The translations under genes and the position numbers were made by a program. From Acrocarpospora macrocephala (GTDB lineage Bacteria > Actinomycetota > Actinomycetes > Streptosporangiales > Streptosporangiaceae): a stretch of DNA of 64,000 nucleotides. Shown one piece after another: positions 33,018-48,755 of this stretch (the first letter of the stretch is position 1; the number at the start of each line of letters is the position of its first letter). Below the pieces are notes generated by a model. That model was not told the origin of the DNA. It searched no databases and saw only the letters and a list, made by a program, of their open reading frames with translations. The stretch is from assembly GCF_009687865.1 (NCBI RefSeq), contig NZ_BLAE01000039.1, positions 41,221 to 105,220 on the forward strand, written 5' to 3'.

Positions 33018-33035
33018 CGGATGCGAGGGGGCGAC

Positions 33036-34034
33036 ATGGCTGATCCGCTCGGCCTCGACGACATCGCGGCACGCGTCTACCGCACGATGCTCACGCTTCC
33101 TCAGGTAACGGTCGACGAACTCTCCGATCAGCTCGATCTGGAGAACAAGCAGGTGGAGGTGGCACTCGACCGGCTCACCGAGCTCTCGCTGGTCCGGCCG
33201 TCCTATGAGGAGGACGGGAGCCTGCGGCCCATCAGCCCGGAAGTGGGCTTCGAGGAGTTTCTCGCCAAGCAGCAGGAGGCGTTGAACTCTCAGCAGCAGC
33301 GGCTGGACGAGTCCCGGGTCGCCGTCGCCAAGCTCATCGCCGAGAGCGCCCACCACCGTCGCCACCACGACGCCGATGTGGAACGGCTCGAGGGCATCGA
33401 CGCCATCCGCGATCGGCTGGCCGAGTTCACCCGAGGGGTGGAGCACGAGGTGTCGGCCCTGGCTCCGGATGGACCGCAAACCGAGGCGAACATCGAGGCC
33501 GCCCGTCCGCTCGACGAGGAGCTGCTCGCTCGCGGCGTCCACCTGCGCACGCTGTACCTCGATAGCATCCGGAACCACCCGGTGACCGCGACATACGCGC
33601 AATGGCTCGTTGACCAGGGAGGATTGGTGAGAACCGCCCCCTCGCTGCCGGTCCGCATGATTCTCGTCGACCGGATAGCCGCCATCGTTCCGATCGACGA
33701 GGAGAACAGCGGACAGGCCGCCATCGTGCTGCACAACTCAGGCGTGCTCGCCGCCCTGTGCGCGCTCTTCGATCACACCTGGCGGGAGGCGACCCCGCTC
33801 GGCGGGTCCGACGTCCAGGACAACGAGGGCCTGTCCAAGCAGGAGCGCGAGGTCCTGCGCCTGCTCGCCCTCGGGCTGACCGATCAGGCGGTGGCCAAAC
33901 GGCTCGGCGTCTCCGTGCGGACCAGCAGCCGCATCACCGCCCTGCTGATGGAGCGGCTGGACGCCCGAAGCCGCTTCCAGGCGGGGGTTCGGGCCAGCGA
34001 ACTCGGCTGGCTGAAAGAGCTGGACCGCCAGTAA
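33036..34034 (+). CDS. LuxR-type regulator with TrmB-like N-terminal HTH, probable cluster regulator
   Basis: Regulator of 332 aa. The N-terminus (LDDIAARVYRTMLTLPQVTV, DELSDQLDLENKQVEVALDR) is a TrmB-like winged helix followed by a coiled-coil stretch around residues 75-105. The C-terminus is a LuxR HTH (LSKQEREVLRLLALGLTDQA, VAKRLGVSVRTSSRI). Proteins with this layout are common pathway regulators next to actinomycete biosynthetic operons. ATG 33036 has GAGGGGG upstream. It ends 314 bp before the first ATP-grasp gene of the operon, on the same strand. Confidence 0.85.
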   Translation: MADPLGLDDIAARVYRTMLTLPQVTVDELSDQLDLENKQVEVALDRLTELSLVRPSYEEDGSLRPISPEVGFEEFLAKQQEALNSQQQRLDESRVAVAKLIAESAHHRRHHDADVERLEGIDAIRDRLAEFTRGVEHEVSALAPDGPQTEANIEAARPLDEELLARGVHLRTLYLDSIRNHPVTATYAQWLVDQGGLVRTAPSLPVRMILVDRIAAIVPIDEENSGQAAIVLHNSGVLAALCALFDHTWREATPLGGSDVQDNEGLSKQEREVLRLLALGLTDQAVAKRLGVSVRTSSRITALLMERLDARSRFQAGVRASELGWLKELDRQ

Positions 34035-34348: not shown

Positions 34349-35734
34349 ATGATGAACCGTGTCACGAAGGAATTCCTCGAGGAATGCGTGGGCGCCGACG
34401 ATCGGTTGCGTACCGTTGTCAATCGCGTGTCCCTCCCGGACGCTTATGCCAAAACCTACGGAAAGGCGCTTCTCCCCAGGCCCGTGTTCGTCGAAGACAC
34501 CGAGATCCGGGGTTTCGCCGACGATCTGACCCAGCTTTTCGACATTCTCGCGTCCCTACCTCAGCGGCTGTTCGACGGTGACCTGCGGCGCTACGCGGCC
34601 AGCTTGGGCATCGGCGAGGAACTGGCCACGATCATGCTCCGCGGCGCGACGGGTCACGTTCCCGTGCACGGGCGGGCCGACGCCTACCACGACGGGACAG
34701 CCTTCAAGCTGCTGGAGTTCAACATCGGCAGTGAGCTGGGCGGCATGGACGCCGCGGCGATGAACTGCGCGTTCCTGCAGGTCCCGGCGTTTCACCGGTT
34801 CGCCGAGCGGCACGGCCTCACCTACGTGGACACCGCGGAACGCGTCGCGAGGGTGCTGCGCGAGGCCGCCCGGCCGGTGACCGGCGACCGCACGCCGGTC
34901 GTCGCCCTGCTGGAGGCCACGGGCGGCCTGGCCGAGGCCGAGCACCTCTTCCCCGCGATCGCGAACTCGATGAATGCCCATGACATCGACATGCGGCTCG
35001 GCGAGGTGCATCAGGTACGCACCAAGGAGGGGAAGCTCACGCTCAACGGCACGCCGATCGACCTGGTCCTGCGGTTCTTCTCATCGGACCAGATCCTCAC
35101 CGGCTCAGGCGGCGTCGAGGTGCTCGACCCGATTCTGCGGGCCCACGCCGACGGTAAGACAGTCCTGTTCACGACGCTCGAAGCGGCCATGTCCGCGAGC
35201 AAGTCGGCACTGGCCCTGCTCTCCGACAACCGGCTGCACTCGTTCTACTCCGCGAGCGAACTCGACGTGATCGACAGGGTCGTCCCGTGGACGCGGCTGC
35301 TGGTCGACGGCCCGCTCCACAAGCGGATCGAGGGCGTTCACCTGCTGGACTACTGCTGCCTGAACCAGGAGCAGCTCATCCTCAAACCCGGTGTGGGCTA
35401 TGGCGGCGTCGGCGCGCTCATCGGCGGCGAAGCCACGAGCGCCGAATGGCGCGCAGCGCTGTCCGCGGCCGTCGGACGGGGCTACGTCGTGCAGCAGATC
35501 GTGACCGCGGCACCTGAGCCGGTGTGCGATCCGCGAACCGGTCGCATCGAGGACTGGTCCGCCAACTGGGGAGTCTTCATCACCGACGAAGGCTACGCCG
35601 GGTCGTTCGTCCGCGCCCTGAAAGCCGAGGACGGCGCGGTCATTTCCTACTCGAACAAGGGCACCCGAGGCGCTCCGGTCTTCTCCTACACAGAAGGACG
35701 CTCGACCGCCCTCCCTCATGAACGGAAGAGCTGA
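34349..35734 (+). CDS. ATP-grasp ligase, glutathionylspermidine synthase-like (circularly permuted type)
   Basis: Predicted ATP-dependent carboxylate-amine ligase of 461 aa. The substrate region has LLEFNIGSELGGMDAAAMN, the ATP-binding part LILKPGVGYGGVGALIGG, and near the end ANWGVFITDEGYAGSFVRA, as in circularly permuted ATP-grasp/glutathionylspermidine synthase-like proteins of actinomycete clusters. ATG 34349 (or 34352) follows AGGGAG. It is the first gene of the operon, with the second ATP-grasp gene 5 bp downstream. It should form an amide bond; the acid and amine partners are unknown, with kynurenine-derived acids or the small peptide at 46983 as candidates from context. Confidence 0.82.
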   Translation: MMNRVTKEFLEECVGADDRLRTVVNRVSLPDAYAKTYGKALLPRPVFVEDTEIRGFADDLTQLFDILASLPQRLFDGDLRRYAASLGIGEELATIMLRGATGHVPVHGRADAYHDGTAFKLLEFNIGSELGGMDAAAMNCAFLQVPAFHRFAERHGLTYVDTAERVARVLREAARPVTGDRTPVVALLEATGGLAEAEHLFPAIANSMNAHDIDMRLGEVHQVRTKEGKLTLNGTPIDLVLRFFSSDQILTGSGGVEVLDPILRAHADGKTVLFTTLEAAMSASKSALALLSDNRLHSFYSASELDVIDRVVPWTRLLVDGPLHKRIEGVHLLDYCCLNQEQLILKPGVGYGGVGALIGGEATSAEWRAALSAAVGRGYVVQQIVTAAPEPVCDPRTGRIEDWSANWGVFITDEGYAGSFVRALKAEDGAVISYSNKGTRGAPVFSYTEGRSTALPHERKS

Positions 35735-35739
35735 TTCCC

Positions 35740-37002
35740 ATGCTGCAGGCATGTCAGACGATGAGGCGGGAGCCGAGATTGCGGCCGCACATCGTCATCA
35801 TCAACCGTTGGCGCGAGCGGTATGCCGACTACGCCGGCTACCTCGACCACAGGGTTAACCGAGTCAGCTATATCACCACCGAAGTAGGGCTCGCCTCGGT
35901 GCCGCAGGCAGCGAACGACGTGCTCCTCGTCGCGGCGACCGACGACCTCGAATCGGTCCGCCGCCGCCTGCGCGAACTCGTCAGCCGGTACGGCAAGCCG
36001 GACGCGATCATCGCCCTGAAGGAGGACGATCTCCTGGTCGCGGCCGCCCTGCGGGCCGAATGGGACTGCCCGGGCCAGCGGGCCGAGGAGCTGATCGGAT
36101 TCCGCGACAAGTACGTGATGAGCCGCCTGATCGCGCGGGCCGGGCTCCCCGTTCCGGCGTTCGGCCTGGCCGCCGACGCGCAGCAGGTCGCCGACTTCGC
36201 CGCGGTGCACGGCTGGCCCGTGATCGTCAAACCCCGATGCGGCTCCTCCAGCGAAGGTGTGGTGCAGGCGAGCGAGCCGGCGGATCTCGTCGGTGTGTCG
36301 TTCGAAGAGCCGCTGCTGGTGCAGGAGTACAACCCGAACCCGATCTACCACGTCGACGGGGTGTTCACCGCTCCCGGCCTGGTCCAATGCCGGGCCTCGC
36401 GTTACGTCAACACCTGCCTGGGCTTCCGGAGCGGCAGTTTCCTCGGCTCGGTGGAAGAGGACGACCCCGTCGTCAACAGCGTCATCGCGGCCGCCGCCGA
36501 GAAGTACATGAGCGCCCTGACCAACCGGCCAACGGCCTTCCACCTGGAAGTCTTCGTCGACTCCGCCGGGCCGTCCTGCGTGTTCCTCGAAGTCGGCGCG
36601 CGGGTGGGCGGCGCGGAGATCCCGTTCGTCTGGCGTGAGGTGCACGGCTACGACCTCATGGAGGCGGCCTTCCGGATCCAGCTCGGCCTGCCGGTCGCCG
36701 AAGGCCCGCCGACCCCCGCGCGAGGCGGAGTCGGCGGCTGGCTGCTCATCCCCACGCCCCTCACGCGCCCGTGCCGTATCACGGAGGCCACCTCGATGGT
36801 CGGCCGCCGGCCTGGCCCGTACGCCGAAGCCCTGCTGCGCCCCGGCGAGGTGCTCCCGCTGGCCGACGCGTACTACGAGCACGTGGGCGGACGGTTCCGG
36901 TTCTGCGAATCCTCGAGTCACGCGGTGGAACAGGCCATCGTCGCCACCGCCGCCGCGTTCCGGGTCGCCGCCGAACCGATCGAGCTGGTGACCTCAGGGT
37001 GA
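35740..37002 (+). CDS. ATP-grasp carboxylate-amine ligase (carbamoyl-phosphate-synthase-like fold)
   Basis: Ligase of 420 aa from a different ATP-grasp branch than its neighbour. GFRDKYVMSRLIARAGLPVP and WPVIVKPRCGSSSEGVVQA form the ATP-binding lobes, and CVFLEVGARVGGAEIP carries metal-binding Glu and Arg/Asn positions. The C-terminal region (GVGGWLLIPTPL) resembles L-amino acid ligase-type proteins that join amino acids to small acids or peptides. It starts 5 bp after the first ligase gene; its stop overlaps a GTG at 36999 that is a possible start for the dioxygenase. The substrates are unknown. Confidence 0.85.
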   Translation: MLQACQTMRREPRLRPHIVIINRWRERYADYAGYLDHRVNRVSYITTEVGLASVPQAANDVLLVAATDDLESVRRRLRELVSRYGKPDAIIALKEDDLLVAAALRAEWDCPGQRAEELIGFRDKYVMSRLIARAGLPVPAFGLAADAQQVADFAAVHGWPVIVKPRCGSSSEGVVQASEPADLVGVSFEEPLLVQEYNPNPIYHVDGVFTAPGLVQCRASRYVNTCLGFRSGSFLGSVEEDDPVVNSVIAAAAEKYMSALTNRPTAFHLEVFVDSAGPSCVFLEVGARVGGAEIPFVWREVHGYDLMEAAFRIQLGLPVAEGPPTPARGGVGGWLLIPTPLTRPCRITEATSMVGRRPGPYAEALLRPGEVLPLADAYYEHVGGRFRFCESSSHAVEQAIVATAAAFRVAAEPIELVTSG

Positions 37003-37025
37003 CCGCTACGGAAGGAAAGACCGAA

Positions 37026-37748
37026 GTGGCAAAGGACTATTCCACCCCGATTCTGTCCGGCGACGGGGGAAGTGACTACGCCCGATACATGCGCACCGAC
37101 ACGCTCCTGTCCCTGCAGCGTCGCCCGGAGGAGATGGTGCATCGGGACGAGCTGCTCTTCCAGACCGTCCATCAATCCACCGAGCTGTGGCTCAAGCACG
37201 CCTGCTTCGAGGTGGCCGAGGCCACCCGGCAGATCCGCGCCGGCGTTCCGGAGACGGCCGAGATCCTGCTGGCCAGGGCCGCCCTCGGCGTAGAGCTGGT
37301 GACCGGCCAGCTGGAGATGATCCGGTATCTCGGCCCCTGGGACTTCCAGCTGATCCGCACGGTGCTCGGCCACGGATCCGGCTTCGAGTCGCCCGGCTGG
37401 CGCGACGTCCAGCGGCGCAGCCAGGAACTGGGTCCCGCCTTCGAGGCCCTCCTCGGCGAACGGCAGGTCGACCTGGCCGACCTGTACCGCGGCAGTCCCG
37501 GCCATCCCCTCTACCGCCTGGCCGAAGCCATGATCGAGTGGGATGAGCGGATCGCGCTGTGGCGGGTTCGGCACTACAAGGTCGCCACCAGGATCATCGG
37601 CCATGAGGTGGTCGGCACCAAGGGCACGCCCGTCGACGTGCTCACGAAGCTCATCAGCCACAAGTTCTTCCCGGAGCTGTGGCGGGTGCGTACGGAGCTG
37701 ACGCGGACCGGCCCGATGGCCGACCCCGCGCCGGCGGCCGCGTGCTGA
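37026..37748 (+). CDS. kynA: Tryptophan 2,3-dioxygenase
   Basis: Heme enzyme (about 240 aa) opening the indole ring of L-tryptophan to N-formylkynurenine. Signatures are DYARYMRTDTLLSLQ, HRDELLFQTVHQSTELWLKH (substrate-binding region with conserved His, Phe and Glu), and GPWDFQLIRTVLGHGSGFES. The proximal heme histidine is expected in LWRVRHYKVATRIIG. GTG 37026 follows GGAAGGAAAG; a GTG at 36999 overlapping the previous stop would add nine residues. The 3' end overlaps the class V PLP gene by 7 bp. It is the committed step into the kynurenine pathway of this operon. Confidence 0.95.
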   Translation: MAKDYSTPILSGDGGSDYARYMRTDTLLSLQRRPEEMVHRDELLFQTVHQSTELWLKHACFEVAEATRQIRAGVPETAEILLARAALGVELVTGQLEMIRYLGPWDFQLIRTVLGHGSGFESPGWRDVQRRSQELGPAFEALLGERQVDLADLYRGSPGHPLYRLAEAMIEWDERIALWRVRHYKVATRIIGHEVVGTKGTPVDVLTKLISHKFFPELWRVRTELTRTGPMADPAPAAAC

Positions 37749-38887
37749 ACGCCCGAACGCGAGGTCTGGACTCCGCCACCTTCCGCACCCGCTTTCCGAT
37801 GCTGGAGCGGATCGTTCACCTGGCCAGTTGCAGCCTGGGCGCCCGGTCGACGGACCTGGACGCGGCGCTGGAGCGGATGCTCGGGGCGATGTCCAGGCAG
37901 GGGGCGCCGTGGCCGGAATTCGAGGGGCAGCTGAACCAGGCGCGGCAGGGCTTCGCCGCCCTCGTCCGAGCTCGAACGGATGAGATCGCCGTAGTCCCCA
38001 GCGCCACAGTCGGCGCCTACCAGGTCGCCTCAACGCTCGCCTGGCCGGACCGGCCGAAGATCGTCACGGTCGAATCGGAGTTCCCCTCGCTGGCCCACGT
38101 CTGGCTGGCCCAGCGCGCCCGCGGAGCCGAGGTCACATTCGTTCCCAAAGCGGGCGCGGTGGCGGACTACCTGGCGGCCATCGACGAACGCACCGGGCTG
38201 GTCTCGATTCCCATGATCGGCTATCGCGACGCGGCACGCCTCGCGGTCGCGGAAGTGGCTCAGGCGGCGCACGCCGTCGGCGCGCGCGTCTTCGTCGACG
38301 CCTATCAGGCCGCCGGAGTCGAGCCCCTGGACGTCGGCCTGCTGGAATGCGACTACCTGGTCGCGGGCACGATGAAGTACCTCCTGGGCCTGCCCGGTGT
38401 GGCGTTCCTCTACGTCAAGGCGGGATCGACCGGTCACAGCCCGCCGCAACTCACCGGCTGGTTCGGGCGGGTCGATCCGTTCGCCATGGACCCACGGCGC
38501 GTCGACTTCCCGGACACGGCGCGGCGATTCGAGACAGGCACGCCCGCCGTGCCCGCGCTCTACGCGGCCAACGCCGGACTCGCGCTGATCGACGAGCTGG
38601 ATCTCGACGCGGTGCGGCGGCACATCGCCGCACTGGTCGCGCACACCGACGACCGGCTGACCCACTCCGGCGAGCGGTTGCTGAGGCCCGCGGACCTGTC
38701 GGCCCGCGGTGCCCACGTCGCCGTCCTCGACCCCGATCCGGCGGCGCTGACCAGCTGGCTCGCCAACCGGCAGATCATGGTCAGCCGGCGCAACGACGTG
38801 GTCCGCCTGGCGTTCCACCACTACAACAACGCCGACGACGCCGACGCGGCGTGCGAGGCCATCCGGCAATACCGCCGCACCTCCTGA
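37742..38887 (+). CDS. Class V aminotransferase-fold PLP enzyme, kynureninase-like
   Basis: PLP enzyme of 381 aa, fold type I. HLASCSLGARS near the N-terminus parallels the NSLG block of kynureninases; the PLP lysine is in LVAGTMKYLLGLPGVAFLYV, and VFVDAYQAAGVEPLDVG contains the cofactor-binding Asp. Similar proteins are annotated as aminotransferase V, cysteine desulfurase-like or isopenicillin epimerase-like. In the context of TDO and KynB, cleavage of (hydroxy)kynurenine to (hydroxy)anthranilate and alanine is the best guess, but sequence alone does not prove it. The GTG start overlaps the TDO stop. Confidence 0.78.
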   Translation: MLNARTRGLDSATFRTRFPMLERIVHLASCSLGARSTDLDAALERMLGAMSRQGAPWPEFEGQLNQARQGFAALVRARTDEIAVVPSATVGAYQVASTLAWPDRPKIVTVESEFPSLAHVWLAQRARGAEVTFVPKAGAVADYLAAIDERTGLVSIPMIGYRDAARLAVAEVAQAAHAVGARVFVDAYQAAGVEPLDVGLLECDYLVAGTMKYLLGLPGVAFLYVKAGSTGHSPPQLTGWFGRVDPFAMDPRRVDFPDTARRFETGTPAVPALYAANAGLALIDELDLDAVRRHIAALVAHTDDRLTHSGERLLRPADLSARGAHVAVLDPDPAALTSWLANRQIMVSRRNDVVRLAFHHYNNADDADAACEAIRQYRRTS

Positions 38888-38925
38888 TCGATCTTTCCAA
38901 ACTGAGTAGTAGAGGTCATGTTTCC

Positions 38926-40167
38926 GTGCCTGAAATCACCAGCGTCATTTCCGCTTCCACGACCACCGAATTCCCCTATGACACGGTGCTGGACGAGTTC
39001 CACAGAGTGGGCAAGCACTGCGTGTCGCACGACATCCTCACCGCTCTGGACAAGGTACGCGCGACCCTGCCGGGCGGGTCCGGGTCCCCGGCCCAGATCG
39101 GGCTGCTGACCAGATTCCTCGACATCGCCCTCGACAAGTACGACGACCGCTACGACTATCCGACCTACGTGGCGCTGAGCCTGCTCCCGCTGCCCGGAGC
39201 GGAGAATCCACCACCGCGCGGCGCTTCCGCCGAGGGGCAGCGTGACCGCCTGGTCGTCCAGCTCGTGGGCGACGCCCTCCGATTCGAACTGGCCGTGGCC
39301 GACGGCCGTACCGACCTGCTGCCGCAGCTGCGGCCGGAGGCCAGGACCGTCGAAAAGCGCTGCCGTCTGGCGCTGCGAGCGATCCGGCCCGCACTGGGCC
39401 GGATCGGCCTGGCCGCCGACGTGGCCGGTGGTGGTGACCAGCTCGATCCGGTCACCGAGGCCCGCGGGATCTGCGCGGCCATCGAGGCCGACCTCTCCCC
39501 AACCGAGCGGCGCACGTTGCGACTGAGCATGCTGCCGGTCTGGGTGGTCCATGACGAGTACCTGTTCATCCGGGTGCTCCAGTCGTTCGAGACGACGTAC
39601 GCGCTGATCGCGGTGCAGCTCCTGGCGGCGACCGCGGCGCTGTCCGACGGCGACTCCGCCGGCGCGATACGCCGGCTCGCCGTCGCCGGGGCGGCGCTGA
39701 GCGAGTCGGCCCCGCTGTTCTCCCTGCTGGCGACCATGCAGGTGGCGGCGTTCCACACCTTCCGCGCGTACACCGAGGGCGCCAGCGCCATCCAGTCGCG
39801 GAACTACAAGATCGTCGAATCGTTGTGCCGGAAGCCCGACAGGCCGCGCCTCGACTCCGCGGCCTACCATTCGGTGCCCGAGGTCCGGGCTCGAGTCCTC
39901 GCCGGTCAGGCCACCTTCGACGAGGCCGTCGAGGTGGCGGTGGCGGACGGCCGCCTCGGCGCGGACGGCCGCGCCGAGCTGGAACTGGCGATGCACGGCT
40001 TCGCCACGGCCCTGCTCCAGTGGCGGCAGACCCACTACAGCCTCGCCGTGCGGATGCTCGGGGAACGTTCCGGCACCGGCTACACCGAGGGCACGCCCTA
40101 CCTGCGGGAAGGACGGAAAATCCCGGTCTTCTGCGCCTTCGCCCCGCCACCTGAGGATGGTCGATGA
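38926..40167 (+). CDS. TDO-superfamily heme protein resembling PrnB
   Basis: Protein of 413 aa. It carries a second, diverged version of the dioxygenase fold: VVHDEYLFIRVLQSFETTYA matches the TDO segment HRDELLFQTVHQSTELWLKH, and LLQWRQTHYSLAVRMLGERS matches the heme-ligand helix, with the histidine kept. The greater length and N-terminal extension fit the PrnB family, whose founder rearranges chlorotryptophan in pyrrolnitrin synthesis. A heme-dependent rearrangement or oxidation of a tryptophan-derived substrate is predicted. GTG 38926 is the best start. The stop overlaps the next gene as ATGA. Confidence 0.72.
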   Translation: MPEITSVISASTTTEFPYDTVLDEFHRVGKHCVSHDILTALDKVRATLPGGSGSPAQIGLLTRFLDIALDKYDDRYDYPTYVALSLLPLPGAENPPPRGASAEGQRDRLVVQLVGDALRFELAVADGRTDLLPQLRPEARTVEKRCRLALRAIRPALGRIGLAADVAGGGDQLDPVTEARGICAAIEADLSPTERRTLRLSMLPVWVVHDEYLFIRVLQSFETTYALIAVQLLAATAALSDGDSAGAIRRLAVAGAALSESAPLFSLLATMQVAAFHTFRAYTEGASAIQSRNYKIVESLCRKPDRPRLDSAAYHSVPEVRARVLAGQATFDEAVEVAVADGRLGADGRAELELAMHGFATALLQWRQTHYSLAVRMLGERSGTGYTEGTPYLREGRKIPVFCAFAPPPEDGR

Positions 40168-41792
40168 CCACTACCCATGCCCCCGTGGGCATCGTCGGAG
40201 CGGGCCCGGTCGGCCTGGTCGCCGCCCTGCGCCTGGCCTCGTTCGGGATCCGGAGCGTCGTTCTGGAGGCGCGGCCGGAGCTGTTCAAACAGGGCTCCAA
40301 GGCGTGCCTGATCCAGGGCGACGTCCTCGAAGTACTGGACAAGGTCGGCTGCGCGGACCAGGTCGCCGCCGAGGGAGTCACCTGGCACGTCGCCCGCACC
40401 TACATCCGGGGCAAGCAGATTCGCGAGACCGTCTACCCGCCGAGGCTCGGCTTCGGTCCGTTCGTCAACATCTCGCAGTACCGCGTCGAGCAGATTCTGC
40501 TCGCCCGGCTGCTGACCGAGCCGCTGTGCGAGGTCCGCTGGGCCCACCGGGTCAGCGACCTCACCCAGGACGCCGACGGGGTGACGGTCCAGGCCGTCAC
40601 CCCCGAGGGGACCCGCGAGCTGCGGTTCGCGCACCTCATGGCGTGCGACGGGATACACAGCGAGCTCAGAGCCATGGCCGGGGTGAACTGGACCGGCTAC
40701 AGCCACAGCGACCGGTTCCTCATCACCGACATCAGGGCGGCGCTCCCGCTCGCCCAGGAACGTCACTTCCACTACGACCCGCCGTTCAACCCCGGCCGCC
40801 AGCTCGTGATCCACCCCCAGCCGGACAGCGTCTGGCGCATCGACTGGCAGCTCCCTCCCGACGCCGACATCGAGGCCGAGCGGCGGACCGGACAGCTCGA
40901 CCAGCGGATCCGGGCCGTCATCGGCGACATCCCCTACGAGATCGACTGGTTGAGCACCTACCGCTTCCACCAGCGGGTGGCCGACCGCCTGCGCGTCGGC
41001 CGGATCCTCTTCGCCGGGGACGCGGCACACGCGCTTCCGCCGTACGGCTCCCGCGGCATGAACAGCGGGATCCAGGACGCGGACAACGCCGCGTGGAAGC
41101 TCGCGCTGGTGGCGGCGGGCGCGGCGGGGGAGACCCTGCTGGACACCTACCACCAGGAGCGGCACGCCGCGGCCAACGAGAACCTCAGGGTCACCGAGGC
41201 CACGATCCAGTTCATGGTGCCGCCGTCCCGGCTTCGCCGCTGGATCCGCAACGCCATTCTGCGGCTGGCGGCTCCGGTCAAGTCGATGCGCGGCCACGTG
41301 AACAGTGGCCGGATGGCCGAGCCGTACGTCTACCGGGACTCGCCCATCGTGGACAACAGTCCGCTGGCGGGCGTGTTCGCGCCGGACGGGCTGGTGGTCG
41401 TCGCCGGCCGGCCGACCCGGCTCCGGCGGCTCTTCGGCGCGGAGTTCGTCGGACTCTACGTCGGCGCCGACCCGGCGCAGGCGGCGCGGTTCGTCGCCGA
41501 CGCGCGGCGGGACGACTCGGAGATCCCCGCCCGCCTCGTGCTCGTCCTGCCGCCGGGAACACCGGCAGGGGAGCTGTCCCACCTGGCCACGGTCGCCCAC
41601 GACACCGAGCCAGGACTGCGGGCCGCCTACGGCGGCGGCCAGGCCACCTGGTACCTCGTGCGACCGGACGGTCACATCGCGGGCGCCTACGGGCCGGAGC
41701 GGGCCGCCGACTTCGCCGAAATCCTGCGGCGCGGCGCCGGGTCGGCAGCCCAGCCCGAGCTGGTCCCCATTCCCGCCAAGGAGGCGTCATGA
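40164..41792 (+). CDS. FAD-dependent aromatic hydroxylase (group A)
   Basis: Flavoprotein monooxygenase of 542 aa. GIVGAGPVGLVAALRLASFG binds ADP of FAD, MACDGIHSELRAMAG is the DG motif, and ILFAGDAAHALPPYGSRGMN the GD motif. A C-terminal thioredoxin-like domain of about 150 residues places it near MhpA/phenol-hydroxylase types rather than classic kynurenine 3-monooxygenase. It most likely hydroxylates an aromatic ring of a kynurenine- or anthranilate-type intermediate using NAD(P)H and oxygen. Both ends overlap neighbours by 4 bp. Confidence 0.88.
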   Translation: MTTTHAPVGIVGAGPVGLVAALRLASFGIRSVVLEARPELFKQGSKACLIQGDVLEVLDKVGCADQVAAEGVTWHVARTYIRGKQIRETVYPPRLGFGPFVNISQYRVEQILLARLLTEPLCEVRWAHRVSDLTQDADGVTVQAVTPEGTRELRFAHLMACDGIHSELRAMAGVNWTGYSHSDRFLITDIRAALPLAQERHFHYDPPFNPGRQLVIHPQPDSVWRIDWQLPPDADIEAERRTGQLDQRIRAVIGDIPYEIDWLSTYRFHQRVADRLRVGRILFAGDAAHALPPYGSRGMNSGIQDADNAAWKLALVAAGAAGETLLDTYHQERHAAANENLRVTEATIQFMVPPSRLRRWIRNAILRLAAPVKSMRGHVNSGRMAEPYVYRDSPIVDNSPLAGVFAPDGLVVVAGRPTRLRRLFGAEFVGLYVGADPAQAARFVADARRDDSEIPARLVLVLPPGTPAGELSHLATVAHDTEPGLRAAYGGGQATWYLVRPDGHIAGAYGPERAADFAEILRRGAGSAAQPELVPIPAKEAS

Positions 41793-42748
41793 CGCAAGCG
41801 GCACCGCGATATGCCTGGCTCAACGGAAAGATCGTTCCCTGGGACGACTGCGTGCTGCACGGCCGTACCCAGGGGGCCTTCTGGGGGGCCAACGTTTTCG
41901 AGGGGATCCGGGCCTACCGGTGTTCCCAAGATCGGCAGCTCCACGTGTTCCGGCTCGACGACCACTTGGCCCGGCTCGGCCGCTCCATGAAGTCGGTCCG
42001 CATGGACATCGCCTACTCCGTGGCGGAGCTCCACGAAGCCTGTCTCGAACTGGTCCGGGCCAACGAGTTCCAGGAAGAGGTCCACCTGTGCGTCGTGGCC
42101 TACTTCGGGATGGGCCGAAACTTCGACCCGCTGTCCCACACCGGCGAGACAGGGGTGCACATCACCGCGGTCCCCATGCCGAGGTCAGAGGGCTACCGCA
42201 CCGGCGTGGCCGCGTGCGTGTCGTCGTGGCGCCGGATCAGTGACGACACGATGCCGCCGCGGATCAAAGCGGGGGCCAACTACCAGAACAGCCGCCTCGC
42301 GCACCAGGAGGCCGTCCGGAACGGCTTCGACACCACGCTCATCCTCAACCAGTGGGGCCGCATAGCCGAGGCCCCGGGCGCCAACGTGATCATGGTCAGG
42401 GACCGGAAGCTGGTCACCCCACCGGGCACCAGCGGCGTTCTCGAGGGCATCACCCTCGACTCGGTCCTGCGGCTCGCCCAGGACGAGGTGGGACTGACCA
42501 TCGAGAAGCGCGACATCGACCGGACCGAGGCGTACGTCGCCGACGAGCTGTTCCTCTGCGGCACCCTCGCGGAGATCCTCCCGGTCGTCACGCTCGACCG
42601 GCTGGTGATCGGGACGGGCGTCCCTGGCCCGATCACCCGGCACCTGCAGCACCTCTACGAGCGGGCGGTCCGGGCCGCCGGCGTCGACTACCGCGACTGG
42701 GTGACCACGATCAGCGTGCGGCCGCAGATCGCCGTGGCCGGCACATGA
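41789..42748 (+). CDS. Class IV aminotransferase (branched-chain aminotransferase-like)
   Basis: PLP aminotransferase of 319 aa, fold type IV. The N-terminal GAFWGANVFEGIRAY is the family signature, the PLP lysine is in PRIKAGANYQNSRLA, and GTSGVLEGITLDSVLRLA binds cofactor phosphate. Strong AAGGAGG precedes ATG 41789, which overlaps the previous stop. A housekeeping branched-chain role is possible, but within this operon it may transaminate kynurenine (giving quinoline acids after cyclisation) or make an unusual amino acid. That role is inference. Confidence 0.88.
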   Translation: MTQAAPRYAWLNGKIVPWDDCVLHGRTQGAFWGANVFEGIRAYRCSQDRQLHVFRLDDHLARLGRSMKSVRMDIAYSVAELHEACLELVRANEFQEEVHLCVVAYFGMGRNFDPLSHTGETGVHITAVPMPRSEGYRTGVAACVSSWRRISDDTMPPRIKAGANYQNSRLAHQEAVRNGFDTTLILNQWGRIAEAPGANVIMVRDRKLVTPPGTSGVLEGITLDSVLRLAQDEVGLTIEKRDIDRTEAYVADELFLCGTLAEILPVVTLDRLVIGTGVPGPITRHLQHLYERAVRAAGVDYRDWVTTISVRPQIAVAGT

Positions 42749-43527
42749 GCGTTCACCCGCCGGTGCTGCCCGGCCTCGTCGCCGGGCTCCGCACGGGAGC
42801 GGTGCGGGTCATCGACCTCACCGCTCCCCTGTCGGAGGACACCCCGGTCATCAGCCTGCCGCCGGACCGGGGACAGCCCTGGCCGTTCGAACGGCGGCTG
42901 ATCAGCAAGTACGACGCCGGCGGGCCGACGGTGTACTGGAACAACATCCGCCTGTCCGAGCACACCGGAACCCACTTCGACGCCCCGGTGCACTGGCTGC
43001 CCGGAAAGGATCTCGACGATGTCTCCCAGGTCCCCGCGGCGCGACTCGTGGCCCCCGCCGCGGTCCTCGACTTCTCCGCCGAGGCCACCGCCGACCCGGA
43101 CTTCCTGCTCCGGCGCGAACACGTCGAGGCCTGGCAGGCCCGGCACGGCCCGCTCCCCGAACACGGGTGGCTGCTGTACCGGACCGGCTGGGACGCCCGG
43201 CTGGCGAACCCGGACAGGTTCCTCAACGACGGACACACCCCCGGGGTGGATCCGAAGTGCGCGCGCTGGCTCGCCGAGGAGACGAGCGTGCTGGGCATCG
43301 GCGCGGAAACGGTGGGCACCGACGCGGGCCAGGCGGCGACCTTCGCCGACCAGCCGTACCCGTGCCACTGGTATTTCCAGGGCGCTGGCAAGTACGGCCT
43401 GACCCAGCTGAGGAATCTGGCGCTGCTCCCACCGCAGGGCGCCGTCGTGATCGCCGGGCCGTTGCCGATAGTCGGCGGATCCGGCAGCCCCGCCAGAGTG
43501 CTCGCACTCGTCGAACAGTCAGCTTGA
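42745..43527 (+). CDS. kynB: Cyclase-family metal hydrolase, kynurenine formamidase-like
   Basis: Hydrolase of 260 aa with the cyclase/KynB signature HTGTHFDAPVHWLPG (HxGTHxDxPxH metal site) and VRVIDLTAPLSEDTPV at the N-terminus. KynB removes formate from N-formylkynurenine, the product of TDO, so its presence in the same operon gives a complete tryptophan-to-kynurenine route. The ATG overlaps the aminotransferase stop. Confidence 0.85.
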   Translation: MSVHPPVLPGLVAGLRTGAVRVIDLTAPLSEDTPVISLPPDRGQPWPFERRLISKYDAGGPTVYWNNIRLSEHTGTHFDAPVHWLPGKDLDDVSQVPAARLVAPAAVLDFSAEATADPDFLLRREHVEAWQARHGPLPEHGWLLYRTGWDARLANPDRFLNDGHTPGVDPKCARWLAEETSVLGIGAETVGTDAGQAATFADQPYPCHWYFQGAGKYGLTQLRNLALLPPQGAVVIAGPLPIVGGSGSPARVLALVEQSA

Positions 43528-43539
43528 GAGGAGCTCCAC

Positions 43540-44739
43540 ATGGACACCACAGCTGGGCTACGGACGGCTTCGTTCCGCGCCATCGTGGTGAGCACGGGAA
43601 CGTCCACCGCGGGAATCGTGCTGAACACCGTCGCGGTGCTGAGCTACGCCTACGGCATCACCCGGCAGGCGATCCCGCTGGGCATCGTGATCATGGCGGG
43701 GCTGCTGCCGATGGCCGTGGTCATGCCGTTCGTCGGCGGCTGGCTGCGGGCCGGAACCGAACGGCGCACCGTCCTGGTCGCCGTGCTGGCGCAGGCCGTC
43801 GGCGCGGCCGTGATGGCAGGGCTGGCGTCGACGACGCTGCTCCCCGCGATGTACGCGATGGTCGCCGTCATGGGGGTCCTGGCCATCGTGACCCGGGTGG
43901 CGTTGTTGTGCCTGCTGCCGCAGACCGTGCCCGCCGAACTCCTGACCGGCGCCAACCTGCGATTCCAGGTGGCGTCCCAGATCGGCGCGGCGGCGGGCTC
44001 GGCGGCGCTGGTGGTCTTCGGTGAGACGGCGCCCTGGGTGCTGTTCACCGTCAACGTGATCACCTTCCTGATCCAGGCGGCCATCCTGCAGCGCGCCCTG
44101 CCGAAGGCGTCCGGCGCGCTGCCGGCGCGCGACCCGGCGCAACTCGACCCCGCCGCCCCGCTGCCGAACTGGCGGCGCGTGCTGCTGCTGGTCCTGCTAC
44201 CGGCGGGCTTCTGCGCGATGAGCCTGCTCAACCTGGTCATCCCGTTGATCGCCCTGGACCGGCTGCAGGACGGCCAGCGCGCCCTGGGAGCCGCCGGAGT
44301 CGTCTTCCCGGCCGTCGCCATCGCCGCGGGGATCCTGCTGCGCCGCAGGGCGCGGCTGCACATGGGGGCCACGGTGGCCATACTCGCCGCCGGGTTCGCC
44401 GTGCTGGCTCTGGCCGACCGCATGGCGCTGCTTCTGGTCGGCGTCGGCGTCATCGGCGCGGGAGTCGTGCTGAGCAACTCCTCGACCCAGGTGTGGGCCC
44501 AGTCGGTCGCGTCCCGGGAGGTGCTGCACCGCTGGCAGTCCTGGGCCGTCGCCTTCGGGGGAGCGCTGACCACGCTGGCGGTCCTCGGTGTGAGCTACGG
44601 CTACGCCGCGGGTCACCAGGTGATTTCCCTGAGCGTCGTCGCGGCGGTCTTCGTGTTGATGACCGTGTTCGCGACGGTGGAGGAAAGGAGACGGCATGGA
44701 ACTGACCGAAGTACACGGCATGCGGTTCGCGTTGGCTGA
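43540..44739 (+). CDS. MFS transporter, probable exporter of the cluster product
   Basis: Membrane protein of 399 aa with about 12 hydrophobic segments and the organisation of MFS_3-type exporters. The loop after helix 2 (GGWLRAGTERRTVLVAVLAQ) replaces the usual GxLaDrxGRR motif. AGAGGAG precedes ATG 43540. It is located between kynB and the acyltransferase gene, with which it overlaps by 44 bp, an unusually long overlap. Export or self-resistance for the pathway product is the likely role. Confidence 0.85.
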   Translation: MDTTAGLRTASFRAIVVSTGTSTAGIVLNTVAVLSYAYGITRQAIPLGIVIMAGLLPMAVVMPFVGGWLRAGTERRTVLVAVLAQAVGAAVMAGLASTTLLPAMYAMVAVMGVLAIVTRVALLCLLPQTVPAELLTGANLRFQVASQIGAAAGSAALVVFGETAPWVLFTVNVITFLIQAAILQRALPKASGALPARDPAQLDPAAPLPNWRRVLLLVLLPAGFCAMSLLNLVIPLIALDRLQDGQRALGAAGVVFPAVAIAAGILLRRRARLHMGATVAILAAGFAVLALADRMALLLVGVGVIGAGVVLSNSSTQVWAQSVASREVLHRWQSWAVAFGGALTTLAVLGVSYGYAAGHQVISLSVVAAVFVLMTVFATVEERRRHGTDRSTRHAVRVG

Positions 44740-45634
44740 CCTCGACGAGGCCGTGCGAACAGCGTGGTCCCCCTACCGCGACCGCGTGGACGTGGTGCGG
44801 GTGGAGAACCCGGCGAGCGAGCGCTGGCCCGAGCTACGCGCCGCGGGTTTCGTGCCCAAACCGATGTGGGTGATGTGGGTCGCCGATCCACTCGGCAGCG
44901 AGGACGAGTACCTCGCGGGCCTTGCCACCCAGGAGCGGTCCAACATCCGCAGGGCGAAGCGCAAGCTGGACGCCAACGGGCTGAAGGTCTCCATCCGCGA
45001 TATCGACCCGGCGCTGTACGACGTGTTCCTGCGGCTCTACGAGGACCGTATTGCCGAGATGCGCCACGGCTGGGCGGTCGCCACCGAGCAGCGCGAGCTG
45101 ATCCTCTCCGATGCGGCCAACCACTTCGCGGTGTGCGTACACCAGGACGCCGAGCTGGTCGGATGCTGCGTCGCGCGGCTGGATAAGGACAAGGACATGG
45201 TGCGCATCCGGTTCTCCGCGGTCGACGTCCCCGGCCGCGAGGCAAGCCTGGCCCGGGCCTTCTTCATGGCCGTCATCCAGGTGGCGCGCGAGATCGGGCA
45301 CGGCTCGGTCAGCCTTGGCTCGGATCCCAACCTCTACGGGCACATCGCCAAGCCCGGGCTGCTCGGATTCAAGAGCCGCCTCGGATTCGGGGCGCACCCC
45401 TCGCACCACCTGGACCCCCTGATCGGCAACGACCAGGCGGACCTGGTGCTGGGGCTGAGCCGGCTGGGCGACCCCGCCATCGTGCTCGGCTACGCCGACG
45501 AGGTCCCGACCGATCGCCTCCGGCTCGAGGCGTTCAGCGAGGTCGAGGACATCGACCTGCGCGAGTACCGGGCGAAATTCCTGCACGGAGAACACACCCA
45601 CGTACTCCCTTCCTACGTCTCGACCTCGCTGTGA
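44696..45634 (+). CDS. FemAB/BioF2-like GNAT-fold acyltransferase
   Basis: Protein of 312 aa with a GNAT-like fold of the Acetyltransf_6/FemAB kind. ATQERSNIRRAKRKLDANGL, LVGCCVARLDKDKDMVRIRF and ARAFFMAVIQVAREIGHGSVS are its best blocks. FemAB relatives use aminoacyl-tRNA, others acyl-CoA; which applies here cannot be seen. AAAGGAGA lies 6 nt before ATG 44696, inside the transporter gene. The stop overlaps the DAHP synthase start (GTGA). In a locus with two ATP-grasp ligases and a peptide gene, amino-acyl transfer is an attractive idea. Confidence 0.7.
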   Translation: MELTEVHGMRFALADLDEAVRTAWSPYRDRVDVVRVENPASERWPELRAAGFVPKPMWVMWVADPLGSEDEYLAGLATQERSNIRRAKRKLDANGLKVSIRDIDPALYDVFLRLYEDRIAEMRHGWAVATEQRELILSDAANHFAVCVHQDAELVGCCVARLDKDKDMVRIRFSAVDVPGREASLARAFFMAVIQVAREIGHGSVSLGSDPNLYGHIAKPGLLGFKSRLGFGAHPSHHLDPLIGNDQADLVLGLSRLGDPAIVLGYADEVPTDRLRLEAFSEVEDIDLREYRAKFLHGEHTHVLPSYVSTSL

Positions 45635-46986
45635 GCACCGCGACCCCCACCCTGTGCGAGCGGCCGGTGGACACCTGGCGCGGGATGCCCGCCGCCCAGC
45701 AGCCGCAGTGGCCGGAAAGCAGGGCGTTGTCGGCGGCCACGGGAGACCTCAGGAGGTCGCCGCCCCTGGTGATCGCCTCCGAGTGTGACCTGCTCAGGCA
45801 GCGCCTGGCCGCGGTCGCCCGGGGCGAGGCGTTCCTGCTGCAGGGCGGCGACTGCGCGGAGACCTTCGACACGGTGACGACGGCCACGATCCGCACCAAG
45901 CTCACGATCCTGCTGCAGATGGCGGTGGTGCTCACCTACGCCGCCTCGATGCCCGTGGTCAAGGTGGGCCGGATCGCCGGGCAGTACGCCAAGCCCCGGT
46001 CCAAGCCGACCGAGACCCGGTCCGGGATCACCTTGCCCGCCTATCGGGGGGACGGAGTCAACGGCCTCCCCTTCACCGCCCTGGCGCGGACGCCCGACCC
46101 GCGACGGCTGGTGCGGATGTACCAGGCGTCGGCGATCACGCTCAACCTGCTCAGGGCGCTCACCACGGGCGGCTACGCCGACCTGCACAAGGTGCACGCC
46201 TGGAACCAGGACTTCGTCGCCGCCTCGCCGGCCGGCAAGCGCTACGAGACGCTGGCCGGGGAGATCGACCGGGCGCTGGCCTTCATGAACGCCTGCGGAG
46301 TGGACCCGCGCGAGTTGCACCGAGTGGAGTTCTTCACCAGCCACGAGGGACTGGTCCTCGACTACGAGGCGGCGCTGACCCGCGTCGACTCCTGGACCGG
46401 CCTGCCGTACGCCACGTCCGGCCATCTGCTGTGGATCGGCGAGCGCACCCGGGACCTGGACGGGGCCCACGTGGAGTACTTCTCCCGGATCCGCAACCCG
46501 ATCGCGGTCAAGCTTGGGCCGACCGTCACGGCGGACACCGCGCTGGCTCTGATCGACAAGCTGGATCCGGCCCGGGAGCCCGGCCGCCTCACCTTCATCA
46601 TCCGTATGGGCGCCGACCTGGTCCGCGAGAAGCTGCCCGATCTGGTACGGCGGGTCACCGACTCGGGGGCGCTGATCACCTGGGTGTGCGATCCGATGCA
46701 CGCGAACACCTTCGCGGCGCCGTCCGGTCACAAGACCCGCCGCCTCGGCGCGGTGCTCGACGAGGTCAGGGGGTTCTTCGAGGTGCACAGAGCGCTCGGC
46801 ACGCACCCCGGCGGCATCCATGTCGAGCTGACCGGCGACGACGTGACCGAGTGCGTCGGCGGGAGCACCGAAATCGCCTTCGACGATCTCGGCTCCCGGT
46901 ACGAGTCGGCCTGCGACCCCCGGCTCAACCGCAGCCAGTCACTCGACCTGGCCTTCCTGGTCGCCGAGATGCTCCGGGAGAGGTGA
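45631..46986 (+). CDS. 3-deoxy-7-phosphoheptulonate synthase, class II (plant type)
   Basis: DAHP synthase of 451 aa, first enzyme of the shikimate pathway, condensing phosphoenolpyruvate and erythrose 4-phosphate. Class II signatures are FLLQGGDCAETFD, PVVKVGRIAGQYAKPRS, ITWVCDPMHANTF and GGIHVELTGDDVTECVGGS. Cluster-borne copies of this class commonly boost aromatic precursor supply, here presumably for tryptophan. The GTG start overlaps the acyltransferase stop, and its own stop overlaps the small peptide start. Confidence 0.96.
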   Translation: MSTATPTLCERPVDTWRGMPAAQQPQWPESRALSAATGDLRRSPPLVIASECDLLRQRLAAVARGEAFLLQGGDCAETFDTVTTATIRTKLTILLQMAVVLTYAASMPVVKVGRIAGQYAKPRSKPTETRSGITLPAYRGDGVNGLPFTALARTPDPRRLVRMYQASAITLNLLRALTTGGYADLHKVHAWNQDFVAASPAGKRYETLAGEIDRALAFMNACGVDPRELHRVEFFTSHEGLVLDYEAALTRVDSWTGLPYATSGHLLWIGERTRDLDGAHVEYFSRIRNPIAVKLGPTVTADTALALIDKLDPAREPGRLTFIIRMGADLVREKLPDLVRRVTDSGALITWVCDPMHANTFAAPSGHKTRRLGAVLDEVRGFFEVHRALGTHPGGIHVELTGDDVTECVGGSTEIAFDDLGSRYESACDPRLNRSQSLDLAFLVAEMLRER

Positions 46987-47084
46987 AGAAGATGAAACGG
47001 ATACTGATCGTGAAGCGCCGCGGGCGGCAGGAACGGCGCCAGCACGACCTGCGCACCCCGTCCGGGAGGGTGCTCCCTTACTAA
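46983..47084 (+). CDS. 33-codon basic peptide, candidate ribosomal substrate or scaffold
   Basis: A 33-aa peptide (31 if ATG 46992 is used) begins MKKMKRILIV and ends PSGRVLPY, with many Arg/Lys and only two acidic residues. GTG 46983 overlaps the DAHP synthase stop as GTGA, the same coupling used throughout the operon, and GGAGAGG lies 8 nt before ATG 46992. The gene ends 4 bp into the convergent oxidoreductase gene. It has no signal peptide or Cys. Because ATP-grasp ligases in pathways such as pheganomycin act on a ribosomal peptide, it may be a precursor or carrier; this is inference. It could also be spurious. Confidence 0.55.
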   Translation: MKKMKRILIVKRRGRQERRQHDLRTPSGRVLPY

Positions 47085-47953
47085 GCGGCCCGGACCATGG
47101 GAACGATCTCCCGCGCCAGCCGCTCTGCCTGCCCCACCGGGTCCGGCCCGACCGTCATGAAGTTCATGGCGGTGAAGCCGAGCTTGCAGAAGGTGAGCAG
47201 CCGCTCCACCACTTCGTCCGCGGCGCCCGACACGACGTCCGGATCGGGGTCGGGAGCCCCGCCCACCTGGATCGAGATGTTGAGGGCGCAGGTGACCTGG
47301 CCGGGGTCGCGGCCCGCCGCCTCCGCCGCCGACAGGACCCGGTCGCGCATCTGCGCGATCTGGTCCGGCGGTGCGAAGCCCAGCGACGGGATCCACCCGT
47401 CGGCCAGCCGCCCGGTCAGGGCCAGGGCCCGGTTGCCGAACGTGCCCAGCCAGATCGGGATGTGGTGCTCCGGCTTCGGCTCCAGGTCGGCTTCCTCAGT
47501 GCGGTGAATACGGCCCTCGTAGCTGAAGCGCTGTTGCGACCACAGGCCGCGGGTGACGAGGATCGCCTCCTCCAGCCCGTCGATCTTGTCTCGTGGCGAA
47601 GACGGCACTCTCAGTCCGAAGGCGCGGAACTCGTCATCCGAGTAACCCCCGCCCAGCCCGAGGATCAACCTGCCACCCGACAGCCGGTCGAGCGACTCGG
47701 CCATCTTCGCCACCATCGCGGGTGGCCGGTACGGAACACCGAGCACACGGGTGGCGACGCGAATGCGCGAGGTCGCCGCCGCGATCCACGACAACATCGT
47801 CCATGTCTCGAATGTTGGATTGGGACCACAGGGGTGGTCGGAAGCCGAGACGAAGTCGAAACCCAACTCCTCGGCCCTTCTGGAATCGGCCACTGGGTCG
47901 GCGCCGGGCGCCGCCGAGGTCGAGACGTTGAGCCCGAATTGCAATGCATTCAT
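47081..47953 (-). CDS. LLM-class (luciferase-like) F420- or FMN-dependent oxidoreductase
   Basis: TIM-barrel flavin/F420 oxidoreductase of 290 aa. FGLNVSTSAAPGADPVADSR at the N-terminus, ASDHPCGPNPTFETWTMLSW, and GRLILGLGGGYSDDEFRAFG are typical. HHIPIWLGTFGNRALALTGR is the later phosphate-binding block. AAGGACAAGGGC precedes ATG 47953. It lies convergent to the operon end and divergent from the methyltransferase, and may belong to the same pathway as a reduction or oxygenation step. Cofactor choice is not decidable by eye. Confidence 0.85.
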   Translation of the reverse strand: MNALQFGLNVSTSAAPGADPVADSRRAEELGFDFVSASDHPCGPNPTFETWTMLSWIAAATSRIRVATRVLGVPYRPPAMVAKMAESLDRLSGGRLILGLGGGYSDDEFRAFGLRVPSSPRDKIDGLEEAILVTRGLWSQQRFSYEGRIHRTEEADLEPKPEHHIPIWLGTFGNRALALTGRLADGWIPSLGFAPPDQIAQMRDRVLSAAEAAGRDPGQVTCALNISIQVGGAPDPDPDVVSGAADEVVERLLTFCKLGFTAMNFMTVGPDPVGQAERLAREIVPMVRAA

Positions 47954-48044: not shown

Positions 48045-48755
48045 GTGAACACCCGCAGTCTCGCAAGGGCGCAGGCCCTGCTCCGCAAGCACGTCGAGGA
48101 CCCGGCGCGCCCGGCCGAGTTCAACCTGCTCGGCCGTGACTGGGAGCTGATGGACGGAGTGTTCGCGCCGACCTACACGCCGGTGACCGAGCTGTTCACC
48201 ACCTGGATTCCGTATCCCAGCGGCGGGACGTTCCTCGAGATGGGCTGCGGCGCCGGGGTGACGGCCGTGGTCGCGGCGCAGTCGGGCTGTCCGCGCGTGA
48301 CCGCCCTCGACATCTGCGCGGCGGCCGTGGAGAACACCCGGCGCAACGCCGCACGCCATGGGGTCGGCGACCGTCTGCGCGTGCTGCGCAGTGACATGTT
48401 CGACGCGCTCGGGCCGGAAGAACGTTTTGACATGATCTTCTGGAACTCCAACTTCGTGGAGGCTCCCGAGGGTTTCGTGAACGAGACCGAACTTCACCAC
48501 GCCCTCTTCGATCCGCAGTACCAGGCCCATCGCAGGTTCCTGGAACAGGCCCCGCGCCATCTGACCGAAGACGGCCGCCTGCTCCTTGGTTTCTCAGATC
48601 TGGGCAGTTCCTCCCTACTGCGGAGCATGTGCGACGAGGCCCACCTGTCGGTCACCCTGCTGCGCGCGGAGAAGCGCACTCTCGAAGAGACGATCGAGTT
48701 CCAGTTACTGGAACTCCGGGCAAGACGTCACGGGCGGTGGGTCATGACGCGGTAG
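48045..48755 (+). CDS. SAM-dependent methyltransferase with HemK-like motif
   Basis: Methyltransferase of 236 aa. Motif I is FLEMGCGAGVTAVVAAQSG, followed by VTALDICAAAVENTRRNAAR. The motif IV position reads FDMIFWNSNF, in place of the NPPY found in HemK/PrmC-type enzymes. GTG 48045 follows GAGGAGA at 7 nt; ATG 48018 is an alternative. C- or N-methylation of a kynurenine-type intermediate would parallel the 4-methyl-3-hydroxyanthranilate routes, but membership in the cluster is inferred only from position. Its 3' end overlaps the convergent ABC permease gene by 28 bp. Confidence 0.83.
   Translation: MNTRSLARAQALLRKHVEDPARPAEFNLLGRDWELMDGVFAPTYTPVTELFTTWIPYPSGGTFLEMGCGAGVTAVVAAQSGCPRVTALDICAAAVENTRRNAARHGVGDRLRVLRSDMFDALGPEERFDMIFWNSNFVEAPEGFVNETELHHALFDPQYQAHRRFLEQAPRHLTEDGRLLLGFSDLGSSSLLRSMCDEAHLSVTLLRAEKRTLEETIEFQLLELRARRHGRWVMTR

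Follow-up and report, generated by a model that had tools for sequence, protein, structure and literature searches.

A conserved actinobacterial gene cluster with two TDO-fold heme enzymes and twin ATP-grasp ligases, and its possible route from tryptophan to a small amide

What might two ATP-grasp ligases build beside enzymes of tryptophan and kynurenine chemistry, and does a ribosomal peptide take part? This question is raised by a run of genes in Acrocarpospora macrocephala, lying in a 64,000-nucleotide stretch of DNA (hereafter the window) on contig C39 of the 12.1 Mb genome. The original prediction, made from the letters alone, had described a twelve-gene operon at 34349–47084 in which a kynurenine-derived acid or amino acid is joined to, or built on, a small peptide encoded at 46983. 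Judged from gene content and order, genes A–K together with two further genes, MT and LLM, are a genuine, conserved specialised-metabolite cluster, which is somewhat larger and differently composed than first described. Our preferred but tentative reading is that the cluster makes an oxidised, hydroxyanthranilate-type acid from tryptophan and converts it into a small amide by stand-alone ligases, with neither a nonribosomal peptide synthetase (NRPS) nor a ribosomal peptide involved.

Layout and conservation of the cluster

Reading frames, codon composition and family scans revealed eleven plus-strand genes, A–K, at 34349–46986, followed by a 33-codon open reading frame (ORF), L. These and the adjoining features are as follows, with scores against Pfam (PF), TIGRFAM (TIGR) or PRK models:

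A, 34349..35734, plus strand: circularly permuted ATP-grasp ligase (family-level PF14403/PF04174 matches)
B, 35740..37002, plus strand: ATP-grasp ligase (PF08443, 25.2 bits, cut-off 21)
C, 37026..37748 (36999 a possible earlier start), plus strand: TDO-family heme oxygenase (PF03301, 82.6 bits)
D, 37742..38887, plus strand: class V pyridoxal-phosphate (PLP) enzyme, kynureninase-like (PF00266; PF22580, KYNU_C, 27.6 bits, cut-off 27)
E, 38926..40167, plus strand: second TDO-fold heme enzyme, without the distal histidine (TDO family by Pfam scan)
F, 40164..41792, plus strand: FAD-dependent aromatic hydroxylase (PF01494, 229.8 bits; PRK08132, 533.5 bits, cut-off 416)
G, 41789..42748, plus strand: class IV aminotransferase, branched-chain type (PF01063; TIGR01122, 267.2 bits, cut-off 245.55)
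H, 42745..43527, plus strand: isatin-hydrolase-like amidohydrolase (PF04199; nearest structure, isatin hydrolase 5nmp)
I, 43540..44739, plus strand: major facilitator superfamily (MFS) carrier, probable exporter, local to this cluster (PF07690, 45.7 bits)
J, 44696..45634, plus strand: FemAB/GNAT-like protein (PF04339, 26.5 bits, cut-off 27; PF13480, 22.6 bits, cut-off 22)
K, 45631..46986, plus strand: class II DAHP synthase, a local addition (TIGR01358, 705.8 bits)
L, 46983..47084 (30 codons from the ATG at 46992), plus strand: 33-codon ORF, doubtful as a gene (ambiguous codon score)
LLM, 47081..47953, minus strand, convergent: F420/luciferase-like oxidoreductase (PF00296; TIGR03619, 171.4 bits, cut-off 166.9)
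MT, 48045..48755, plus strand: small HemK/PrmC-like methyltransferase, a cluster member (PF05175; directly after H in 4 of 20 E loci)
REG, 33021..34034, plus strand: TrmB/LuxR-type regulator directly upstream, of uncertain membership (PF00196, PF01978)

The genes are co-directional, and the A–K junctions run from −44 bp (I–J) to +38 bp (D–E), as the proposed ceiling of 38 bp on the gaps would have it; the 4-bp overlaps said to prevail are found at five of the ten junctions, provided that C starts at 36999. A start at 37026, which leaves a 23-bp gap after B, is more likely because the nearest relatives begin near the same DYS-type N-terminus. The K–L junction measures −4 with a GTG start and +5 with the ATG at 46992. 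Eleven of the twelve predicted genes thus stand and the twelfth, L, is doubtful, while the cluster reaches past 47084 to MT and LLM, since both recur with the same genes elsewhere. Family scans bore out the ATP-grasp-type ligases, the class II DAHP synthase and the TDO family, the last with two genes (C and E) where one had been described; no NRPS, polyketide synthase or radical SAM domain appeared in the eleven operon proteins scanned, in keeping with the earlier statement. Tryptophan/kynurenine-type chemistry beside two ATP-grasp ligases is the best-supported part of the original prediction.

Relatives of E were collected from three sources, whose genomes may overlap: a scan of named genomes, mostly yielding actinobacteria (seven loci); 297 genomes of the family, of which 16 have E at 1e-20; and 394 genomes of the class, of which 9 have E at 1e-40, the source genome being counted in both of the latter. 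Of 29 E-bearing places outside the window, 20 were entered in a presence table (tblastn at 1e-8, half of the query covered); outside the table stand seven distant loci with flanks of ~1.5 kb (genomes G076, G275, G239, G132, G147, G209 and G214), G605 (a 4.3 kb contig) and G625. Most loci span 14–21 kb, and absence means absence within that stretch. Loci, genomes and contigs are denoted by L, G and C with a number.

The exact order A-B-C-D-E-F-G-H-MT recurs in three further actinobacterial genomes, at L061 (G024), L062 (G078) and L089 (G541, from another family), with ~48–76% protein identity; a search for the same gene order elsewhere, which had been put forward as a check, is thereby answered. 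Because this nine-gene order is kept in three further genomes, the association of the genes is more than chance. Nine of the 20 tabulated loci combine C, D, E and H: the three just named, L037 (Kibdelosporangium banguiense), L066 (G268), L067 (G188) and L063–L065, which come from three genomes of one genus and so are not independent. Among these nine core loci, F is present in eight, G and J in five each, MT in four and A with B in three; counted over all 20 loci, J again has relatives in five and A with B in three. A reduced cassette, consisting of C, E, a kynureninase-like gene and a PF00891 O-methyltransferase, is found in L038 (Micromonospora echinofusca), L039 and L040 (two Hamadaea metagenome-assembled genomes) and L090 (G386), its class V PLP enzyme being 30–32% identical to D. 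Among the loci outside the table, E is flanked by a TDO-like gene in G239 and G147, and G132 has a weak relative of D.

The amide-forming neighbours of the core vary: the window has twin ATP-grasp ligases, L067 has an NRPS, L037 a LanB-like protein and L063–L065 FemAB/GNAT-like proteins (NRPS genes here and in L041, L043 and L068 were recognised by eye in the translations). The pairing of one core with several kinds of ligation system is consistent with a building-block module, and it lets one ask how amide-forming machinery is swapped in evolution.

Two heme enzymes and a candidate pathway

C scores 119.4 bits on the TDO model TIGR03036, below the equivalog cut-off of 390.7 and above the Pfam cut-off for its family. 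Its distal and heme-ligand histidines, which we take to be the equivalents of H55 and H240 of Xanthomonas TDO, are kept in all 14 aligned rows; the Y113 position is Phe, likewise in the other TDO of this genome (L002). E combines the TDO/IDO helical core with a heme-ligand histidine, which places it in the heme-dependent aromatic oxygenase (HDAO) superfamily, while at the distal position, a histidine in TDO, all 20 aligned rows have Leu, Val or Ile. By fold comparison its layout is two-part and IDO/PrnB-like. Since the genome carries a further TDO on contig C111 and a further class II DAHP synthase on C11, the copies in the cluster look dedicated.

Like the HDAO enzymes MarE, PrnB and TyrH, as far as these are described in the available text of the reports (PMC13036774, PMC11904535, PMC11791213), E has the TDO/IDO/PrnB fold and the heme-ligand histidine; unlike them, it has no distal histidine and usually stands beside a TDO-like C. 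Luz15, also counted among the HDAO enzymes, is a characterised heme enzyme, a tryptophan-5-hydroxylase, according to the part of its report available (PMC13036774). The RES-701 lasso peptide paper (PMC7280977) was considered as a further case of a TDO-like tryptophan hydroxylase and set aside; the word dioxygenase is absent from its available text.

What was established directly is which genes are present, their conserved order, and the folds and active-site residues; from these we infer substrates, step order and product. K would raise the supply of aromatic precursors, and precursor supply is probably its role. E would hydroxylate the indole ring and C would open it to N-formylkynurenine; H would then take off the formyl group, or open a related cyclic amide, and D would cleave the side chain to give a hydroxyanthranilate and alanine. 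F could add a further ring hydroxyl, MT could methylate, and G could make a partner amino acid or an intermediate. Finally, A and B, perhaps with J, which may be either a tRNA-dependent ligase or an acetyltransferase, would form the amide bonds, and I would export the product. LLM, whose relatives are 61–66% identical and lie beside the core in L061, L066 and L094, probably belongs to the cluster as well. The best hint of ring hydroxylation by E, followed by ring opening through C and release of a hydroxyanthranilate through D, comes from the reduced cassette: its O-methyltransferase presupposes a hydroxyl group, for which E is the sole hydroxylase candidate recognised among the four genes; the cassette suggests that the module would make a phenol. 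How the two related heme enzymes divide the work can be put to the test, and the pair offers a natural comparison for the role of the distal histidine in the superfamily.

In actinomycin and anthramycin, kynurenine-derived anthranilate modules serve actinobacterial antibiotics. The present cluster resembles those modules in devoting genes of the TDO, hydrolase and kynureninase types to a single biosynthetic cluster; it differs in its second TDO-fold enzyme E, in its isatin-hydrolase-like H and in ATP-grasp ligases that replace the NRPS.

Several observations weigh against this pathway. The best solved match of D is a kynureninase (1qz9, E-value 8.7e-25), and yet D barely passes the KYNU_C model, and the kynureninase model TIGR01814 is not among the families listed to an E-value of 0.1; the PLP enzyme of the cassette reaches 61 bits on the kynureninase model (cut-off 246.4), below SufS at 104.9. 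H had been labelled KynB, a label we rejected: it gains 33.5 bits on the arylformamidase equivalog model, with a cut-off of 223.05, and its nearest solved relatives are isatin hydrolases (5nmp, 5nna, 4j0n), to which it aligns over its whole length (5nmp residues 5–265, E-value 8.7e-76) and from which it differs in lying in a biosynthetic operon. In the presence table the four reduced-cassette loci show no relative of H, so deformylation there would need another enzyme, and in the C rows of L038, L039 and L040 the carboxylate-binding arginine (R117) is Gln or Lys. F is absent from the core locus L067, G is without a certain role in the pathway, MT is of the HemK/PrmC-like and not of the O-methyltransferase type, and I, K and REG occur in none of the 20 E loci.

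A strict pairing of C with E was considered as a rule and rejected, four of the 20 loci (L042, L068, L069 and L093) having E and no relative of C at 1e-3. One of these, at L068:9562-10806, is a second E relative (39%) of genome G139, in an apparent NRPS cluster without a relative of C, and E-type enzymes thus also work alone. E relatives adjoin a divergent C-like gene and NRPS genes at L041:9635-12146 (Streptomyces sp. NRRL WC-3742) and L043:4319-6702 (Sporosarcina limicola, outside the actinobacteria). At L042:2867-11112 (Sciscionella marina) an E relative lies beside a distant relative of A and an aspartate-decarboxylase-like PF02261 protein, with DUF6002-like and FemAB-like proteins recognised by eye.

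Ligases, the small ORF and competing readings

A on its own has no Pfam match, the window member being absent from the PF14403 hits, and its predicted structure is unusable (pLDDT 33.9). Taken as a family it belongs among the circularly permuted ATP-grasp proteins: PF14403 is matched by 17 of 29 members (best E-value 7.8e-8) and PF04174 by 9 of 29, and the family profile finds glutathione and glutathionylspermidine synthetases weakly (best E-value 0.0014). Relatives of A occur in 38 of the 297 family genomes (1e-10, the source genome counted), many of them without the rest of the cluster. In L070:9711-11693 the start of an A relative and an aspartate-decarboxylase-like ORF, recognised by eye and encoded on the opposite strand, are ~300 bp apart, and L042 likewise has such a gene near its distant A relative; some members of the A family may use beta-alanine.

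The peptide reading, in which the product of L is the ligation partner of, or the scaffold for, an acid or amino acid, by a pheganomycin-like or carrier-peptide logic, draws on the position of L directly after K, on an AGGTGA stretch shortly ahead of the ATG at 46992, plausible as a ribosome-binding site, on the two ligases in the operon, and on the LanB-like protein (PF04738, 46.5 bits) upstream of the same core in L037. PEARLs, which are peptide-tRNA ligases, derive from the LanB-like family. In pheganomycin an ATP-grasp enzyme carries out peptide ligation; the resemblance lies in ATP-grasp ligases beside a short ORF, and the difference in that no relative of the short ORF was seen beside the ligases at the other loci and that A is a circularly permuted ATP-grasp. 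The codon score of L, 4.0 bits, is ambiguous: of 819 non-coding open segments 11% score at least as high, and of 247 coding segments 7.7% score no higher. The presence table at 1e-8 was not used alone as evidence on L, being too strict for a 33-residue peptide; at an E-value of 1e-3, tblastn found no relative of L in 32 loci, a permissive short-peptide search of 27 loci (L061 and L062 included) returned nothing beyond low-complexity, Arg-rich matches, and scans for small ORFs at selected ends of the twin-ligase clusters gave no convincing substitute, with the limit that a precursor upstream of A in L061 could be missed because that locus ends 275 bases beyond A. Since no relative of L was found in the three other twin-ligase loci (L061, L062, L089), A and B seem to join their substrates without it there, and the claimed joining to the peptide at 46983 is not supported. 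Nor is a role of L as a ribosomal precursor, the conservation expected of the precursor of a ribosomally synthesised and post-translationally modified peptide not being seen in these loci; L probably belongs neither to the pathway nor to its product, and we consider the peptide reading improbable. Conserved clusters lacking both peptide and ligases had been named in advance as grounds for abandoning that reading: the three loci do lack the peptide, and they keep the ligases.

The LanB-like type of peptide ligase is confined to L037, with none among the operon proteins of the window or in the other 19 tabulated loci. At L037:1-8139 the genes ahead of the core encode a DUF6002 protein, an MFS carrier, a distant A relative (26%) and the LanB-like protein, and this arrangement is possibly a carrier-peptide version of the pathway. 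A more sweeping proposal, which we regard as doubtful, is that C, E and the kynureninase-like and isatin-hydrolase-like enzymes form a portable module for a hydroxylated anthranilate, plugged into ATP-grasp, NRPS, LanB/PEARL-like or FemAB/GNAT-like systems, and that it here yields anthranilamides free of both NRPS and peptide.

The same genes admit three other routes. A quinaldate or kynurenate route would have G transaminate kynurenine, closure to a quinoline acid and coupling by the ligases, with D doing something else. An aminotransferase does occur together with the TDO-family genes, and tryptophan-derived 3-hydroxyquinaldate building blocks are a precedent from quinomycin-type compounds, going by the accessible part of that report (PMC3578932); yet D is kynureninase-like and present in all nine core loci, whereas G is present in only five and is of the branched-chain type, and the route appears unlikely. 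An oxindole or isatin route would give E a MarE-like role in forming a 2-oxindole and H the opening of an isatin-type ring; it would account for the closeness of H to isatin hydrolases. MarE, of the superfamily of E, makes 2-oxindoles according to the portion of its report available (PMC11904535), and its structure 9ca3 is among the fold matches of E; the alignment, however, leaves part of the model unaligned (TMq 0.34), the two-part layout of E is IDO/PrnB-like, and C and D would be left without a clear role, so that this route seems quite unlikely. That the genes are an ordinary tryptophan-degradation operon, as the company of TDO-like, hydrolase and kynureninase-like genes could suggest, is most improbable in view of the two ligases, the carrier and the DAHP synthase, the other TDO in the genome, the distance of C from the TDO equivalog cut-off, and the NRPS or LanB-like neighbours of the core elsewhere.

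What has been gained is a defined, recurrent gene module: we found no paper with this gene set, and no description of it, in open-access PubMed Central text (subscription journals and MIBiG lay outside the scope). Its ATP-grasp version is compact enough for heterologous expression. Two further genes were seen within the core. At L063:12516-13658 (G139) a TnpB/transposase-like ORF, recognised by eye, lies between C and D, a pair that is adjacent in G065 and G205. At L064:6584-6991 (G065) a Rieske-domain protein (PF00355) lies between F and H, where other loci have G.

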